Shown piece by piece: positions 16,174-21,976 of a stretch of DNA of 64,000 nt. A program made the position numbers and the translations under genes. The stretch covers positions 682,001 through 746,000 of the forward strand of contig NZ_BCAG01000006.1 of NCBI RefSeq assembly GCF_001293685.1, read 5' to 3'. How positions within the stretch are numbered: the stretch's first letter is position 1; each line of letters opens with the position of its first letter. Source of the stretch: Desulfatitalea tepidiphila (lineage in GTDB: Bacteria > Desulfobacterota > Desulfobacteria > Desulfobacterales > Desulfosarcinaceae). A model generated the notes under the pieces. The model was given only the letters and a program-made list of their open reading frames with translations. It was not told the origin of the DNA and searched no databases.

Positions 16174-16890
16174 CTACCGCGATTTCTTCTTGCCGCTTTT
16201 CAAGCGTCCCATCACCGCCCCGATCACGGCCTCCACGGCGGCATCCACATTCATGTTGCCGGTGTTGAGGATCATGTCGTAGTGCACGGGATCCACGATG
16301 TCCGCATTGAAAGATTGGCGAATGAAGGCGCGGCGTCTGTTCTCACGGATCAACACACGCTGTTTGGCGACATCGGTGGGAACCCGAAACCGTTTGGACA
16401 CATTTTCGATACGAATCTCGAGAGGCGCCACGACCCGCACCGCAAAACGATCTTTGGGCGGAATGATGAAGTTGGCGCCCCGGCCCACAATCACGGCGTG
16501 CCCGTGCTTTCCAATGGTGCCGACCACTTTCATCAAATGCTCCAAATAGATGCTGGGATGAATGTATTGTTCCTTGATCACCGAGGCGATGAAATCCTGG
16601 ACGCCCGACAGGCGCTCTTTTTCAAGGGAATCCACCACAGTGGTGCTGATGCGGGCGCTTTCGGCGATCCTGTGCACCATATCGCGATGAAAAAAGTCAA
16701 ATCCCAGCCGATTGGCAATTTGTTCACCGATGAGACAGCCACCGGCGCCCGGCTCCATGCACACCGTGATGACCGGGATCTTCGCGGTCTTTTTCTTCTC
16801 GTCCGCCGTATAGAGTTTCTGCCACTTCTTGATCTGCTGATTGACGAACTGCTCAACGGATTGTTCGTCCTGTTGTTCCACCGTTGCCAT
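16174..16890 (-). CDS. cytidylate-kinase-like family protein (paralogue 1)
   Basis: A 238-residue P-loop NTPase of the cytidylate_kin2 type. After an N-terminal helical extension of about 38 residues, the P-loop reads VITVCMEPGAGGCLIGEQIA. Then come FFHRDMVHRIAESARIS, VIVGRGANFIIPPKD and NRRRAFIRQSFNADIVDP, all typical of the family. True CMP kinases (Cmk) are a related but distinct group, so the phosphoryl acceptor is unknown. GAGGTT precedes the ATG. It lies downstream of the Fo genes on the same strand, and two relatives occur at 21.3 and 29.2 kb. Confidence 0.85.
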   Translation of the reverse strand: MATVEQQDEQSVEQFVNQQIKKWQKLYTADEKKKTAKIPVITVCMEPGAGGCLIGEQIANRLGFDFFHRDMVHRIAESARISTTVVDSLEKERLSGVQDFIASVIKEQYIHPSIYLEHLMKVVGTIGKHGHAVIVGRGANFIIPPKDRFAVRVVAPLEIRIENVSKRFRVPTDVAKQRVLIRENRRRAFIRQSFNADIVDPVHYDMILNTGNMNVDAAVEAVIGAVMGRLKSGKKKSR

Positions 16891-17055: not shown

Positions 17056-17631
17056 TCAACGCTGGGCAGCCTCCATCCATCTTTGGACCCATCGATCGTG
17101 ATCCTGAAGGGTGACCCGCCGAGGCAGCTTTTCGAGGGCGATTTGGGCGGCCATGTCGATAAGCTCGCCGCGAATGCGAGCGCTGGTGTCTCTGAACATG
17201 GCTTCGATTTTATGCTGGGTGCTTTCTATTAAAACCTCGCTCTCGTTTCTGGCGTCGGCGATCAGCTCGTCTTTTCGTCGCTGACCCTCTGCGATGATTC
17301 TGTCCTTGACCAGCTCCAGGCGCTCCTGGCCCATCGTTAACTCTTTTCGGGTCTCCTCGATCTGAATTTCCATGCCGCGCTTTTTTTCTTCCAGATCATC
17401 GATCGCCCGCCGGACCTCGGCTCGTTTATCCTTGAGAAAACTGATAATCGGTCTGCGCGCATACTTGATGAAAAAGCCGGCCAGGATTGCGAAATTGACA
17501 TACCGCATGATCAGATCGTAGGTGTGCCGTGTAAACTCAAAGGAATCGGATGCCCAGGCGTTGCCGGCGACGGCGCACCACCCAATGACGATTGTCGACA
17601 CGATGCCGATGTAATGCATGTTGCGCCCCAT
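17056..17631 (-). CDS. atpF: F-type ATP synthase subunit b (second b-type copy)
   Basis: Peripheral-stalk subunit linking Fo to F1. 191 residues: an N-terminal hydrophobic, signal-like stretch (about 6-27), a membrane helix around FEFTRHTYDLIMRYVNFAIL, then a long charged coiled coil (DDLEEKKRGMEIQIEETRKE and onward). The motif following the membrane segment, PIISFLKDKRAEVRRAIDD, matches b subunits. The start shares one base with the stop of the preceding b' gene (TAATG). No delta, alpha, gamma, beta or epsilon genes follow, which is unusual. Confidence 0.87.
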   Translation of the reverse strand: MGRNMHYIGIVSTIVIGWCAVAGNAWASDSFEFTRHTYDLIMRYVNFAILAGFFIKYARRPIISFLKDKRAEVRRAIDDLEEKKRGMEIQIEETRKELTMGQERLELVKDRIIAEGQRRKDELIADARNESEVLIESTQHKIEAMFRDTSARIRGELIDMAAQIALEKLPRRVTLQDHDRWVQRWMEAAQR

Positions 17632-18089
17632 TATCGCAGCTCTCCGTTGGGTTCCAGCAAACGGGCGATCATCATTTCCGCAACCGACATCGCCTCATCT
17701 TGCGTCGCGGCCATGGCTGTCTTCAACTTGGCCGCCGTCTCCTGCTGGGCTTTTGATTTCATGGCGTTGATCTCGTCTCTGGTGCGGGCGATCAATTCGG
17801 CGGCGGTCTTCTGTCCGGACGCCTCGATATCATCCTTGATTTTCAGCGCGCTATCCCGCACCTGGTCTTCCTGGCGCTGGATCTGTTTTAACAGCTGTTT
17901 GTATTCATCTCCCGCTTCCGTGATCTCTTCGTTCAATTGATCCAGGAAAAAGTTTCTCTCCTGGATGACTCGATCGAGCGGACGGATCATGATCCGGTGG
18001 ATGATGAACAGAAAAAGCAAAAACGACAACAGCTGAAAGACCAGTGTCGCGTTGATCGTGATCAAAGCGGTGGTTTCAATGACTTCCAT
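17631..18089 (-). CDS. F-type ATP synthase subunit b' (b-like)
   Basis: 152 residues. One N-terminal membrane helix (LVFQLLSFLLFLFIIHRIMI), then RPLDRVIQERNFFLDQLNEE and a coiled coil to the end. This is the b/b' pattern, and with the next gene it gives a heterodimeric peripheral stalk. It lies 24 bases after the single-hairpin c gene. Confidence 0.87.
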   Translation of the reverse strand: MEVIETTALITINATLVFQLLSFLLFLFIIHRIMIRPLDRVIQERNFFLDQLNEEITEAGDEYKQLLKQIQRQEDQVRDSALKIKDDIEASGQKTAAELIARTRDEINAMKSKAQQETAAKLKTAMAATQDEAMSVAEMMIARLLEPNGELR

Positions 18090-18113: not shown

Positions 18114-18362
18114 TTAGACGACAAACAGGAGCAACAGCGCGATGACCAGCGAGTAAATGCCCGTCGACTCGGAAACCGCCTGGCCCACCAACATCGTACG
18201 CGTCAACAAGCCGGCCTCCTTGGGGTTTTTGCCTATGGCTTCACACGCTTTGGCCGCCGCCATCCCTTCGCCCACGCCGGGCCCGATGGCGCCCAGCCCC
18301 ATGGACAAACCCGCGCCCAAAAACGCCGCCGCTTTGACAATATCCACGCCTTCGATTGCCAT
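18114..18362 (-). CDS. atpE: F-type ATP synthase subunit c, single hairpin, Na+-type
   Basis: 82-residue proteolipid with two membrane helices. Its numbering aligns without gaps to the Na+-ATPase c subunits I recall from Ilyobacter and Fusobacterium: Glu65 (ion carboxylate), Ser66, Thr67 and Tyr70 in SESTGIYSLV, Val63, and Glu32 in GPGVGEG where Ilyobacter has Gln. A second carboxylate at 32 is the Fusobacterium-type two-carboxylate Na+ motif. The polar loop is KNP rather than RQP. GGAGG precedes the ATG. Na+ specificity is predicted from these residues, not measured. It lies directly after the four-hairpin c gene. Confidence 0.93.
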   Translation of the reverse strand: MAIEGVDIVKAAAFLGAGLSMGLGAIGPGVGEGMAAAKACEAIGKNPKEAGLLTRTMLVGQAVSESTGIYSLVIALLLLFVV

Positions 18363-18411
18363 TGAGATCCTCCCACGTTGTTACGTTGATCCTTGCGGAT
18401 GTTTATCTTGA

Positions 18412-19386
18412 TTAAACCACGAATATCAGCACCAAAGAAATGACCATCGCATAAATGGCCGTGGATTCGGCCACGGCCATGCCCACCAGCATCGTGCGAA
18501 CGATAATTCCCATCTCTTCCGGGTTGCGGGCGATCCAGGTGACGCCGCCGCTCGAGGCAATCCCTTCGCCAATACCGGGGCCGATCCCGCCGGTTCCCAT
18601 GCATATGCCTGCCGCCAACAGGGCCATGGCCGGCGCCAGCGCATCGCTGTCTGCGCCACCCTTGAAGATAAGGATAAAGCCGATCAGCAAGCCGAGAATC
18701 GCCGGAGTCTGGCTGATGGCCTGTCCCAGCAGCATGATATTGGTCACCGGACCGGCGGCCTTGGGATTGCGGGCGATTCCCTCGCAACTGGCCTGGGCCA
18801 CAAATCCGCCGCCAATACCCGAACCGATGGCACTCAGTCCGGTTGACAACCCGGCCCCCATGACCGCCGCCCAGGTCGGGGACAACGGCTTGGTGGCATA
18901 GTCGGTGAAAATCAGGATAAACCCGATAACCAGGGCGAAGATGGAGGGGGTCTGGCACACGGCCGATCCCACCAGCATGTTGGTGGTCAAACGGCCGCTC
19001 ATGGCCGGCTGGCGCCCCATGCCGAGGCAGGCCGCCCCGGCCGGGTACCCGGCCCCGATCCCCGACCCGATGGCGCCCAGCCCCATGGCCAACCCGGCCG
19101 AAAATACGGCCCAGACCATCACAAAAGAGGTGGCGGGGAAGGAAGAAAACAGCAGAATCATGGCGATCACGAGGGCAAAAATCGAGGCCGACTCGGCGAT
19201 GGCCTGGCCCACCAGCATGGACTTGAGAATATCACCCGAAATGGCTGGATTTCTTGAGATCGCCGCATTGGCCTGGGCCGCGGTGTGCCCCTCGCCGATG
19301 GCGGCCCCGATCGCACCCAAACCCATGGCCAATCCGCCGCCGGCATAGGCGCCCACTTTTACCCAAACTGCAATGTCGTCTATCAT
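18412..19386 (-). CDS. atpE: four-hairpin fused ATP synthase subunit c
   Basis: 324 residues comprising four tandem c-type hairpins (eight membrane helices), about residues 5-80, 88-160, 170-241 and 250-324. Each repeat has a glycine-rich first helix (such as LAMGLGAIG) and a second helix with the GQA-type motif. The ion carboxylate is kept only in repeats 1 (Glu65, AESASIF) and 4 (Glu307, AESTAIY); repeats 2 and 3 have Gln145 and Gln226 (CQTPSIF, SQTPAIL). The Glu32-equivalent follows the same split: Glu32, Ala112, Gly193, Glu274. The pattern recalls V-type c subunits, which have fewer ion sites per helix. The gene sits between atpB and the normal c gene, so both products are likely assembled in one ring. 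No frameshift; repeats are diverged, so the fusion is old. Confidence 0.9.
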   Translation of the reverse strand: MIDDIAVWVKVGAYAGGGLAMGLGAIGAAIGEGHTAAQANAAISRNPAISGDILKSMLVGQAIAESASIFALVIAMILLFSSFPATSFVMVWAVFSAGLAMGLGAIGSGIGAGYPAGAACLGMGRQPAMSGRLTTNMLVGSAVCQTPSIFALVIGFILIFTDYATKPLSPTWAAVMGAGLSTGLSAIGSGIGGGFVAQASCEGIARNPKAAGPVTNIMLLGQAISQTPAILGLLIGFILIFKGGADSDALAPAMALLAAGICMGTGGIGPGIGEGIASSGGVTWIARNPEEMGIIVRTMLVGMAVAESTAIYAMVISLVLIFVV

Positions 19387-19398
19387 GGCTATCGGCTA

Positions 19399-20073
19399 CT
19401 ACTTCGCTTGGGTTGAAATATAAACCACGGTCAGCATCGTAAACACGAACGCTTGAATCGCCCCGACAAACAAACCGAAAAATGCATTGAGGAACGGCGG
19501 TAAAATAATGTTGTAAGTCAAATAGGAGACGACCAGGATGATGATCGAGCCGCCCATGATGTTTCCGAAGAGACGAAAGGAAATGGATACGATCTTGGCA
19601 AGCTCGCCGATCAGATTCAGCGGCATCATGAAAAACATGGGTTCGAAATACTCTTTGATGTAAGCCTTGAACCCTTTGGTTTTGATGCCGACGTAGTGCG
19701 CGATGACAAACCCCATGATGCCCAGGCTCAGGGGGGTGTTCAAGTCTTTGGTCGGCTCCTCCAGGTGGGGAATGATGCCGATCCAGTTGCAGAGCACAAG
19801 GAACATGAACAGCGCGACGATCATGGGGGCATAGGTTCTGGCCAATGTTTTTCCCATGGCATCCTCGGTCAGTTCGTAGAGCTTGGACACCAGTAACTCT
19901 CCCACGATTTGAAAACGATTGGGCACAATGGCGCGGCGTGATGCGCAGAGCCAACCAAAAACGATCAGCAGGCCGATGACGATCCACGTCATCAACATGA
20001 CCTCTAAATTCAATGTCAGCTTGTACCCAGCGATCGTAAGAATCAGCTGGTGAATTTTGCCGAGCTCTTGCAT
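19399..20073 (-). CDS. atpB: F-type ATP synthase subunit a
   Basis: Stator channel of Fo, 224 residues with five or six membrane helices. The essential arginine is in ISFRLFGNIMGG; also typical are NWIGIIPHLEEPTKDLN and the C-terminal FVGAIQAFVFTMLTVVYIS. It faces the c ring and would pass ions to its carboxylates. Followed after 12 bases by the four-hairpin c gene. Confidence 0.95.
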   Translation of the reverse strand: MQELGKIHQLILTIAGYKLTLNLEVMLMTWIVIGLLIVFGWLCASRRAIVPNRFQIVGELLVSKLYELTEDAMGKTLARTYAPMIVALFMFLVLCNWIGIIPHLEEPTKDLNTPLSLGIMGFVIAHYVGIKTKGFKAYIKEYFEPMFFMMPLNLIGELAKIVSISFRLFGNIMGGSIIILVVSYLTYNIILPPFLNAFFGLFVGAIQAFVFTMLTVVYISTQAK

Positions 20074-20083
20074 GGCCCCCGTC

Positions 20084-20464
20084 CTATGACTCTTTATTGA
20101 AAATTATCCTGGTGAAATGATCCCCCATAAGCACGCCCTGAACCATGAAAAGGCCTGCCGCGGTGCTGTAGAAATTGATGGTGTCAAGTTTTGCCGAAAT
20201 CAGCAACGGCACCGCCAACACCACGTATCTAAACCCGATGCCGCCCAGGCCGACCAGGAAAGTCTGCCGCCGACCTTTATCGAGGCGCATCGGCAACAGG
20301 GTGGCCATCATGATAAAATTTAGTATGCTGAACAGGGTTCCCAAGACCAGACCCTTGGCCATTGGCTTGGCATCCAGCGCCAGGAAAAGCAAGGCGCCAA
20401 CGATGGCCAGTGCCATGGCGAGCGAGCAATATCTTTTTTGAAGGTCTTGTATGTCACTGGTCAT
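20084..20464 (-). CDS. atpI: ATP synthase subunit I (AtpI-like assembly factor)
   Basis: 126-residue membrane protein with about four helices (SLAMALAIVGALLFLALDA; GLVLGTLFSILNFIMMATLL; a third near LAVPLLISA). This is the UncI/AtpI pattern, which in known systems helps assemble the c ring, including hybrid rings in Acetobacterium. It overlaps the end of the upstream atpZ-like gene by about 11 bases and precedes atpB. Confidence 0.85.
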   Translation of the reverse strand: MTSDIQDLQKRYCSLAMALAIVGALLFLALDAKPMAKGLVLGTLFSILNFIMMATLLPMRLDKGRRQTFLVGLGGIGFRYVVLAVPLLISAKLDTINFYSTAAGLFMVQGVLMGDHFTRIIFNKES

Positions 20465-20699
20465 TGGATCTGTCTTTTTTATCCTTTTCCTCTTTCAGCA
20501 CCTCTTGGATCTGGCGGTAGGCGACATTTGCGCCGCCGATCACGCCCAGGAGCGTGAAAATCGTCAGAAAAACCCCACGGGTGCCCAACCAACGGTCGAT
20601 GTAACGGCCCACAAAGAAGCAGAACACAACACAGCCGGCAAGGGTAAGGCCCAGCTGCATGACAATGTATACCTGCCCCATCCATTCGCTGTGCTTCAT
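20454..20699 (-). CDS. atpZ: AtpZ/AtpI-like small membrane protein
   Basis: 81 residues with two helices (YIVMQLGLTLAGCVVFCFFV and VFLTIFTLLGVIGGANVAYR) and a charged C-terminus. The GRYIDRWLGT motif between the helices is typical of the AtpZ family that heads atp operons. First gene of the Fo operon. The ATG at 20699 (MKHSEW) is preferred; an in-frame start at 20714 is possible. Confidence 0.82.
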   Translation of the reverse strand: MKHSEWMGQVYIVMQLGLTLAGCVVFCFFVGRYIDRWLGTRGVFLTIFTLLGVIGGANVAYRQIQEVLKEEKDKKDRSNDQ

Positions 20700-21337
20700 G
20701 GATCCAGTGTCCAACCGTATCTCCAGGTTACAGTAGTGGGTCGGGCACCCGTTTAAGGCATCTTGTCGGCCACCGTTGCCGGCCGGTTCGCTTTATTCTG
20801 TAAAAAACCGCACGTATCAGCAGGACAACCATCGGTCATCCCAAAAAAACAATTGTTAAAACAAAGCCATCTCAATCTGCAAGTTGAAGAATAGGAGCAG
20901 GACATGAAGCAAGGCACACCATTTCCGGCTTAAAGGTTGGAACCGAGTGATGGAATATGAGTTTTTTCATTCCACACGAGCACTCAACCACTATCAAAAA
21001 TATTTGATGGCTGTCAAGCCGTTGGGGTGATCATAACAAATGAATTTTATACATCCGATGAATCCGGAATTAATATTGACGCCTGATCAATTTTTCACTA
21101 CGTTCAAAATGGCGTCCCAAACGGAAAGCGTTGATAAGACACCTTCGGCGCATGTCCGCCGGACCCGACGTTGCACTCGCCCAGCGACCCCGACCGCTGC
21201 AAACGGGCAATTGTGGTTCAAAACGGCAACACCTGTTTCATCGTTCATTCGACAACCCAACTATCGGGCCTGATGAGTATTTTCGGATTCGGGCGGTGAC
21301 ACCCATACAGCCGGTTGCGAACGCATAGGAGGCACCC
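20700..21337. other. divergent intergenic region, Fo operon versus kinase-like gene
   Basis: About 640 AT-richer bases between the minus-strand atp operon and the plus-strand cytidylate-kinase-like gene. It should hold both promoters. A short inverted repeat (GGAAT ... ATTCC around 20954-20975) is the only structure I could see. Small plus-strand ORFs here (21040-21330) lack family features and ribosome sites and are not called. Confidence 0.5.
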
Positions 21338-21976
21338 ATGGCAGTGTTAACCATTTCCAGACAATTTGGAGCGGGTGGTGCGACATTGGGGAAAAAATTG
21401 GCCGAGCTACTCGGATATATCTTTGTCAACGACGAGATCATCTCCAAGGTGGCTCAAAAGGCCAAGGTCTCTCCCGATTGGGTCAAGTCGGTGGAAAGGG
21501 AGGCCGGCGGCAAACTGCAAAAATTCATCGGCGCGATTGTCCCAAGGAGATTGGTGGATCGCATTCTGGACGATCGCCAGGGCTATATCGACGAAGAAAT
21601 CTATGTCGATCTACTTTCCGAGATCATCAATAAAATCGCAGACGAAGGCAATTGCGTCATCCTCGGTCGGGGCGGACAATACATCCTCAAAGACCGCAAG
21701 GACACGTATCACGTGCTGCTCATTGCCAGCGAAGCGTATCGTGTCCAATTTATGGAAAAACAATACAACCTGTCCCATAACGAGGCGATCCGCGCCATTG
21801 CGGCCGAAGACAAAAGACGCACCAGTTTATATCGCAAAATCGGCCGAGCGGACTATGATCGGCCCGAACACTATCACCTCACCCTCAACATGAGCCGGGT
21901 GAATCTGGATACTGCCACGGGGATCGTTCAAAGCCTGATCCTTGGCAACAGCTCACTCGCCAAAGCCAACCCCTAA
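21338..21976 (+). CDS. cytidylate-kinase-like family protein (paralogue 2)
   Basis: 212 residues. It starts directly with the P-loop region, LTISRQFGAGGATLGKKLAE, then VNDEIISKVAQKAKVSPDWV, NCVILGRGGQYILKD and KRRTSLYRKIGRADYDRPEH. It is close in layout to paralogue 3 at 29.2 kb (same residues after the P-loop, same DKRR and DYD(R/Q)PE motifs) and less close to paralogue 1. AGGAGG precedes the ATG. It ends five bases before the antiporter gene, so the two are cotranscribed. Substrate unknown. Confidence 0.85.
   Translation: MAVLTISRQFGAGGATLGKKLAELLGYIFVNDEIISKVAQKAKVSPDWVKSVEREAGGKLQKFIGAIVPRRLVDRILDDRQGYIDEEIYVDLLSEIINKIADEGNCVILGRGGQYILKDRKDTYHVLLIASEAYRVQFMEKQYNLSHNEAIRAIAAEDKRRTSLYRKIGRADYDRPEHYHLTLNMSRVNLDTATGIVQSLILGNSSLAKANP

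Follow-up and report, generated by a model that had tools for sequence, protein, structure and literature searches.

The window analysed here, a stretch of 64,000 nucleotides of Desulfatitalea tepidiphila DNA, carries a minus-strand operon (20714 -> 17056) that encodes AtpZ, AtpI, a, c4, c, b, and b', the membrane half (Fo) of an F-type ATP synthase (Table 1). The genes neighbouring c4, those of a, b, b', AtpI, and AtpZ, belong to F-type families, and the Arg in the SFRLFGN motif of the window's a subunit is kept in 79 of 79 a subunits that adjoin a multi-hairpin c. Neither a V/A-type a/I subunit nor V/A-type stalk subunits lie beside the multi-hairpin c at the window locus. No F1 genes are found in the operon, of which b' is the last gene. 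The first-pass annotation had spoken of a bacterial F-type operon; its assignment to the F-type families is borne out, but the operon turns out to encode Fo only, with the F1 genes absent. The arrangement is also not that of an N-ATPase, in which alpha and beta accompany a and c and delta is lacking; an N-ATPase-like locus lies separately on contig C4.

Table 1 Features of the Fo operon in the window, in the order of transcription.
Feature	Position	Strand	Remarks
AtpZ-like subunit	20454..20714	-	First gene of the operon; PF09527
AtpI	20084..20464	-	PF03899
Fo subunit a	19399..20073	-	224 aa; PF00119
c4, four-hairpin c	18412..19386	-	324 aa; E-Q-Q-E at position 65, E-A-G-E at position 32
c4 hairpin 1	19147..19365	-	Active (E32, E65)
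c4 hairpin 2	18907..19125	-	Silent (A112, Q145, QTP motif)
c4 hairpin 3	18664..18879	-	Silent (G193, Q226, QTP motif)
c4 hairpin 4	18421..18636	-	Active (E274, E307)
Strong ribosome site GGGAGG before c	18369..18374	-	Duplex energy -9.9 kcal/mol
c, single hairpin	18114..18362	-	82 aa; two-carboxylate Na+ motif
b-type peripheral stalk subunit	17631..18089	-	152 aa; PF00430
b'-type peripheral stalk subunit	17056..17631	-	191 aa; PF00430

Genes resembling cytidylate kinase (PF13189) stand on both sides of the Fo operon, at 16174-16890 and 21338-21976 of the window, and similar genes occur in several fetched loci. A CitMHS_2-family ion transporter (PF16980, 21942-23582) is encoded divergently beside the operon; it was seen in 3 fetched loci (the window, L057, and L083), most fetched loci having short flanks.

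The first-pass annotation had described a 324-residue c of four hairpins adjoining an 82-residue c, with Glu at residues 65 and 307 and Gln at residues 145 and 226 of the longer protein. Both genes are present on the minus strand, the ATP-synt_C family of Pfam matches c4 four times (E 1.9e-54) and the 82-residue c once, and the ion-site residues of c4 are indeed E65, Q145, Q226, and E307. The place of the second Na+ carboxylate is occupied by E32, A112, G193, and E274 in hairpins 1 to 4. Since Q145 and Q226 replace the first carboxylate and A112 and G193 the second, hairpins 2 and 3 of c4 are devoid of both. The single c of the window has E32, V63, E65, S66, T67, and Tyr at place 70 (Y70), and hairpin 4 of c4 carries the same full Na+ ligand set. 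Hairpin 1 retains E32, E65, and S66, but has A67 and F70. Judged from these residues, the Na+ ligand set is present in the single c and in the active hairpins of c4, in hairpin 1 partly so. The predicted structure of c4 consists of four hairpins with a mean pLDDT of 89, obtained from an alignment of four sequences. Its best match by both sequence and fold is c1 of the Acetobacterium woodii ring (PDB 4BEM), and V-type c chains come next in the fold search.

The search suggested in the first-pass annotation, for how common a four-hairpin c is, found matches to c4 in 167 of the 389 genomes sampled within the order, covering 93 of 150 genera (E<=1e-40), and in 43 of the 395 sampled across the phylum (E<=1e-30). 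A second assembly, that of Desulfatitalea sp. UBA4791, encodes c4 at 98% identity. With this protein and the matches throughout the order, chance or an assembly error is a very unlikely origin of c4. A survey of named genome contigs gave only three loci, and a plasmid search gave no match. The hairpins were read in 80 distinct multi-hairpin c proteins rather than in all 167 genomes; distinct here means non-identical, with near-copies included, and the sample consists of best-scoring matches and hand-picked regions and is not random. Four hairpins were found in 63 of these proteins, three in 6, five in 5, six in 4, and two in 2, and c forms of 2 to 6 hairpins occur across the phylum. At 79 of the 80 distinct genes the cluster also contains a single-hairpin c, and the 80th locus (L054) ends at a contig edge. 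Among 44 laid-out stretches the gene order is usually a, multi-hairpin c, c; c precedes the multi-hairpin c in L116, and a lies between them in L079. One genome (G166) has two four-hairpin c loci (L081 and L082), one of them with a truncated a gene.

The residues at position 65 of successive hairpins follow a narrow set of patterns: EQQE in 38 of the 80 proteins, EQQQ in 19, EQEE in 6, EQQQE and EQQ in 5 each, EQQQQQ in 4, and EQE, EQ, and EE in 1 each. Hairpin 1 is active, with both carboxylates, in all 80 proteins. Every silent hairpin has Gln at position 65 (186/186), and the two carboxylates are lost together. Among the 323 hairpins, 136 combine Glu65 with Glu32, 186 have Gln65 and lack Glu32, and none has Gln65 with Glu32; a single hairpin (E/L) keeps Glu65 without Glu32. 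Glu32 is thus absent from 186 of 186 silent hairpins and present in 136 of 137 active ones. A QTP motif, specific to silent hairpins, occurs in 119 of the 186. Wherever a protein has two or more silent hairpins, these are adjacent (71/71). The absence of the pattern EQEQ, found in 0 of the 63 four-hairpin proteins, is too weak an indicator for use.

For the 37 EQQE proteins that have a c next to them, the mean identities of hairpins 1 to 4 are 0.72, 0.72, 0.69, and 0.69, and that of the single c is 0.89. The single c beside a multi-hairpin c is the most conserved part, with a mean identity of 0.88 (n = 62). Since the silent hairpins are as conserved as the active ones and always carry Gln, decay of these hairpins is ruled out. 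In our reading, the entire site of a silent hairpin has been turned off and is maintained in that state. The best tree for the adjoining a subunits, many forks of which are without support, takes 12 changes for the four-hairpin pattern, with 5 changes for hairpin 3 and 7 for hairpin 4. In an independent-pairs test restricted to well-supported branches of this tree, the losses of Glu65 and Glu32 agree in 3 of 3 pairs for hairpin 3 and in 2 or 3 of 3 for hairpin 4, significance being out of reach with three pairs each. A tree of the hairpins themselves, built from 18 chosen loci with few columns and low support, suggests three groups, namely the first hairpins, the inner silent hairpins, and the last hairpins together with the single c. 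In six EQEE proteins (L032, L059, L072, L079, L086, and L089), hairpin 3 has both carboxylates. Since the hairpin tree places the third hairpins of L032 and L072 among the silent third hairpins, both carboxylates of hairpin 3 may have been regained together in the EQEE proteins.

The two kinds of c gene differ in their ribosome sites. Of 79 pairs, 73 have the stronger duplex energy on c, 3 have it on the multi-hairpin c, and 3 show no difference, with medians of -10.0 kcal/mol for c and -4.6 kcal/mol for multi-hairpin c, in a comparison that takes start codons by a script rule and ignores kinship. For 20 regular c genes, the median is -10.0 and the mean -8.5. In the window, c4 starts 12 bases past the stop codon of a and has almost no site (-0.7 kcal/mol), compared with the strong site of c. 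This contrast in ribosome sites is not a measure of protein, and it fits few copies of c4 and many of c.

The assembly of D. tepidiphila (5.6 Mb, 7 contigs) contains three c loci, three a genes, and two gamma genes. Besides the window operon, the c loci are a regular AtpZ-AtpI-a-c set on contig C3 and the N-ATPase-like locus on contig C4 (L016), which has its own alpha, beta, gamma, a, and c and is taken as an N-ATPase. The high-scoring gamma gene lies in a stand-alone F1 cluster on C3, apart from both Fo, and the low-scoring one lies on C4. The window a shares 28% identity with the regular F-type a of D. tepidiphila, and a branch with support 100 separates the a subunits associated with multi-hairpin c from regular a.

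A similar count recurs in other genomes. Among 35 genomes picked for few contigs or for interest, with matches taken at E<=0.001, the number of a genes minus that of gamma genes is 1 in 28 of the 30 with multi-hairpin c and 0 in all 5 without. The exceptions are G071, in which gamma was not found, and G166, in which the truncated a is extra; at the family cut-off only, G166 fits the rule and G611 departs from it, its second gamma being a short weak match. Of 44 fetched stretches, duplicates included, 10 have F1 genes inside the multi-hairpin c cluster, one of these (L103) showing delta only before the contig ends. In seven genomes (G409, G420, G481, G516, G589, G631, and G651), the sole high-scoring gamma sits in the multi-hairpin c cluster and a further high-scoring a lies elsewhere; the regular Fo is therefore without an F1 of its own in these seven. 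Four of them additionally have a closely spaced pair of low-scoring gamma and a genes, taken as N-type. A single gamma of the high-scoring main type is found in 12 of the 30 multi-hairpin c genomes. Since the operon encodes Fo only and a exceeds gamma by one, a single F1 is probably common to two membrane motors, as far as the a and gamma genes can tell.

The regular c subunits differ from the single c of the window in the residues of the ion site. Without filtering, Leu occupies place 67 of the c that adjoins a regular a at all such loci (28/28); an EST motif is confined to the three multi-hairpin c loci of the set. Alignment of 20 distinct regular c, left after removal of the EST-motif rows, rows with two domain hits, and duplicates, gave Q32 in 19 and M63 in 19. 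Since the regular c has Leu67, Q32, and M63, the regular Fo resembles a Na+ motor less closely. RnfC (TIGR01945 above the cut-off) was found in 25 of 43 multi-hairpin c genomes and in 76 of 352 others (Fisher p 1.4e-6), with two draws of 395 treated as the same genomes. We do not lean on this comparison, as it ignores kinship and as the Rnf2 of Desulfobacteraceae is reported to differ in RnfB and RnfC (PMC11887813). D. tepidiphila has two RnfC genes, on contigs C1 and C3.

We consider that the operon encodes a second, Na+-coupled Fo with a hybrid c4/c rotor and a lowered Na+/ATP ratio, which docks on the main F1, and we give this reading a probability of about 0.7. Docked on the main F1, the Fo of the window would replace the regular Fo, and its ring would consist of few c4 (most simply one) and several single c. 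Each c4 would occupy four places in the ring and supply two Na+ sites, and no more than two, since hairpins 2 and 3 appear permanently neutral, with Gln for Glu65 and a small residue for Glu32. A ring of N hairpins that contains one c4 would move N-2 Na+ per turn and (N-2)/3 per ATP. For N = 11, the ring size of Fusobacterium nucleatum (PMC3692424), this would give 9 sites and 3.0 Na+/ATP instead of 3.67. By our own arithmetic, with 50 kJ/mol assumed for ATP, the Na+ force for synthesis would rise from ~141 to ~173 mV; in the pumping direction, the gradient sustainable by ATP would rise alike. A lower ratio would thus give a steeper Na+ gradient from ATP, but would call for a larger gradient for synthesis. 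A lowered ratio presupposes that c4 is part of the ring. The sequence is compatible with synthesis or with ATP-driven Na+ pumping, and the direction cannot be told from it. A mixed ring in which hairpins outnumber ion sites, as proposed in the first-pass annotation, remains the best reading of the residue patterns, the pairing of the two genes in the operon, the ribosome sites, and 4BEM; the joint ring of c4 and c, its stoichiometry, the use of Na+, the sharing of F1, and the physiological direction are what we infer rather than observe.

Silent hairpins are not harmless in every ring, since one E56Q hairpin abolished ATP synthesis in an engineered c10 ring (Mitome 2004, told in PMC8809890). 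In engineered fused c10 rings, two E56D sites were least harmful when adjacent (PMC8809890). The six-hairpin EQQQQQ proteins (L074, L076, L105, and L107), with the first hairpin alone active and five silent ones in a row, present a mechanical puzzle; so long a silent run would give the ring an arc that could be driven only with difficulty.

The rotor could be composed differently. V-type ATPases have rings built from fused-hairpin c, and V-type c chains match c4 by fold, so c4 might form a ring alone, for example of three copies with 12 hairpins and 6 sites, and c alone might build a separate ring, the two being chosen by expression. We consider this unlikely, since the single c is in the same cluster at all 79 loci with an available neighbourhood and has the stronger ribosome site in 73 of the 79 pairs, and since the six-hairpin forms alone would make rings with very few sites (one in six for EQQQQQ). 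It is also unlikely that c4 acts as a template for assembly or sets the size of the ring, to be dropped or to stay inert afterwards. The QTP motif that 119 of the 186 silent hairpins have of their own would suit such a role, as would the start of the window's c4 right after a with almost no ribosome site. However, the presence of both carboxylates in hairpin 1 of all 80 proteins and the tracking of Glu65 by Glu32 speak for a working ion site in a ring, and c1 of A. woodii is present in the solved ring 4BEM.

The partner of this Fo could likewise be another than the main F1. The operon is without F1 genes and D. tepidiphila also has an N-ATPase-like F1 on contig C4, and the window Fo might therefore work with that F1, or without any F1 as a Na+ channel or gated leak. 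This is rather improbable in view of the F1 genes in the same cluster in 10 of the 44 fetched stretches (delta only in L103) and of the 12 genomes among 30 whose single gamma is of the main type. Furthermore, the operon encodes b and b', which are the usual partners of delta. N-ATPases, in contrast, are described as lacking delta (PMC4154653). The same paper contains a hint that Desulfococcus oleovorans received its duplicated a and c by transfer from Thermotogae, which would agree with an extra Fo left over from gene transfer and of little function. Conservation across the phylum, intact reading frames, and the linked residue pattern make a relic very improbable, as does the adjoining single c, the most conserved part of all.

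The preferred reading, a hybrid Na+ Fo on the main F1, can be extended to a natural gearbox, in which one F1 of many Desulfobacterota would be coupled in turn to the regular Fo with its plain ring and to the Na+ Fo, the ratio of the latter would evolve by the addition of hairpins and by the switching on or off of sites, both carboxylates at a time, and the cell would pick its ratio by picking the Fo; to this extension we give even odds. The ion sites per ring set the ion cost of ATP, and many sulfate-reducing bacteria live on small energy yields. If F1 is indeed shared, such cells could alter both the coupling ion and the gear ratio of a single ATP synthase. If the gearbox exists, fused c with 0, 1, 2, 3, and 5 silent hairpins would constitute a ready-made series of gear ratios. 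Non-working ring sites have been studied via engineered rings, and the natural series here runs from 0 to 5 silent hairpins in a row.

The duplicated Fo of D. oleovorans is, we presume, probably the same system as the Fo of the window. It has been described as a duplicated, ectopic ATPF0, a second full Fo set in a delta-proteobacterium (PMC4154653); the accessible part of that report treats it as a case of one species and has no mention of hairpin number, silent sites, or F1 sharing. Two copies, one of them split, are reported for Desulfotignum phosphitoxidans (PMC4046663), and several atpE copies for Desulfatiglandales genomes (PMC13343851). The first-pass annotation had held a four-hairpin c beside a normal c to be little or not described. 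For the hairpin number this agrees with our search, since no bacterial F-type c with at least three hairpins is named in literature titles and the starts of abstracts among the matches listed, an earlier sighting in papers on hybrid rotors being possible; the hybrid-rotor kind itself, however, is already known from A. woodii. In the accessible text of the related ATP synthase literature compared, there is no mention of a bacterial F-type c with at least three hairpins, of silent runs, or of F1 sharing. The Fo-only operon, the one Fo more than F1, the joint loss of the carboxylates, and the forms of 2 to 6 hairpins go beyond the earlier annotation.

Fused hairpins and the fold match liken c4 to the V/A-type c of Enterococcus hirae (2BL2) and to the archaeal multi-hairpin c. 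In V-type c, the Na+ ligands are often lost in one hairpin, and archaeal c has three hairpins in Methanocaldococcus and 13 in Methanopyrus, whose protein keeps all sites (PMC2359735). Unlike the multi-hairpin c of the V/A enzymes, c4 of the window has the F-type neighbours a, b, b', and AtpI. The ring of Fusobacterium nucleatum (3ZK1/3ZK2) is a two-carboxylate Na+ c-ring, a plain c11 of one kind of c (PMC3692424). By its residues, the single c of the window resembles that subunit in Glu32, Val63, Glu65, Ser66, Thr67, and Tyr70, whereas here two kinds of c are encoded.

The closest likeness is to the hybrid rotors, known from A. woodii (c1 with nine c2/c3) and Clostridium aceticum (PMC7911925). 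The A. woodii ring has 10 sites and 3.3 Na+/ATP (PMC7793690), and its structure 4BEM contains one c1 chain and nine c2 chains. As in A. woodii, a multi-hairpin c silenced by Gln and a single-hairpin Na+ c are encoded in one operon. A. woodii c1 has two hairpins and one site, whereas c4 of the window has four hairpins and two sites, and its relatives have 2 to 6 hairpins with up to five silent in a row. A. woodii has Gln32; here, Glu32 is used and is lost along with Glu65. Finally, the operon of A. woodii encodes a complete F1Fo, whereas that of the window is Fo-only, with one F1 apparently common to two Fo.
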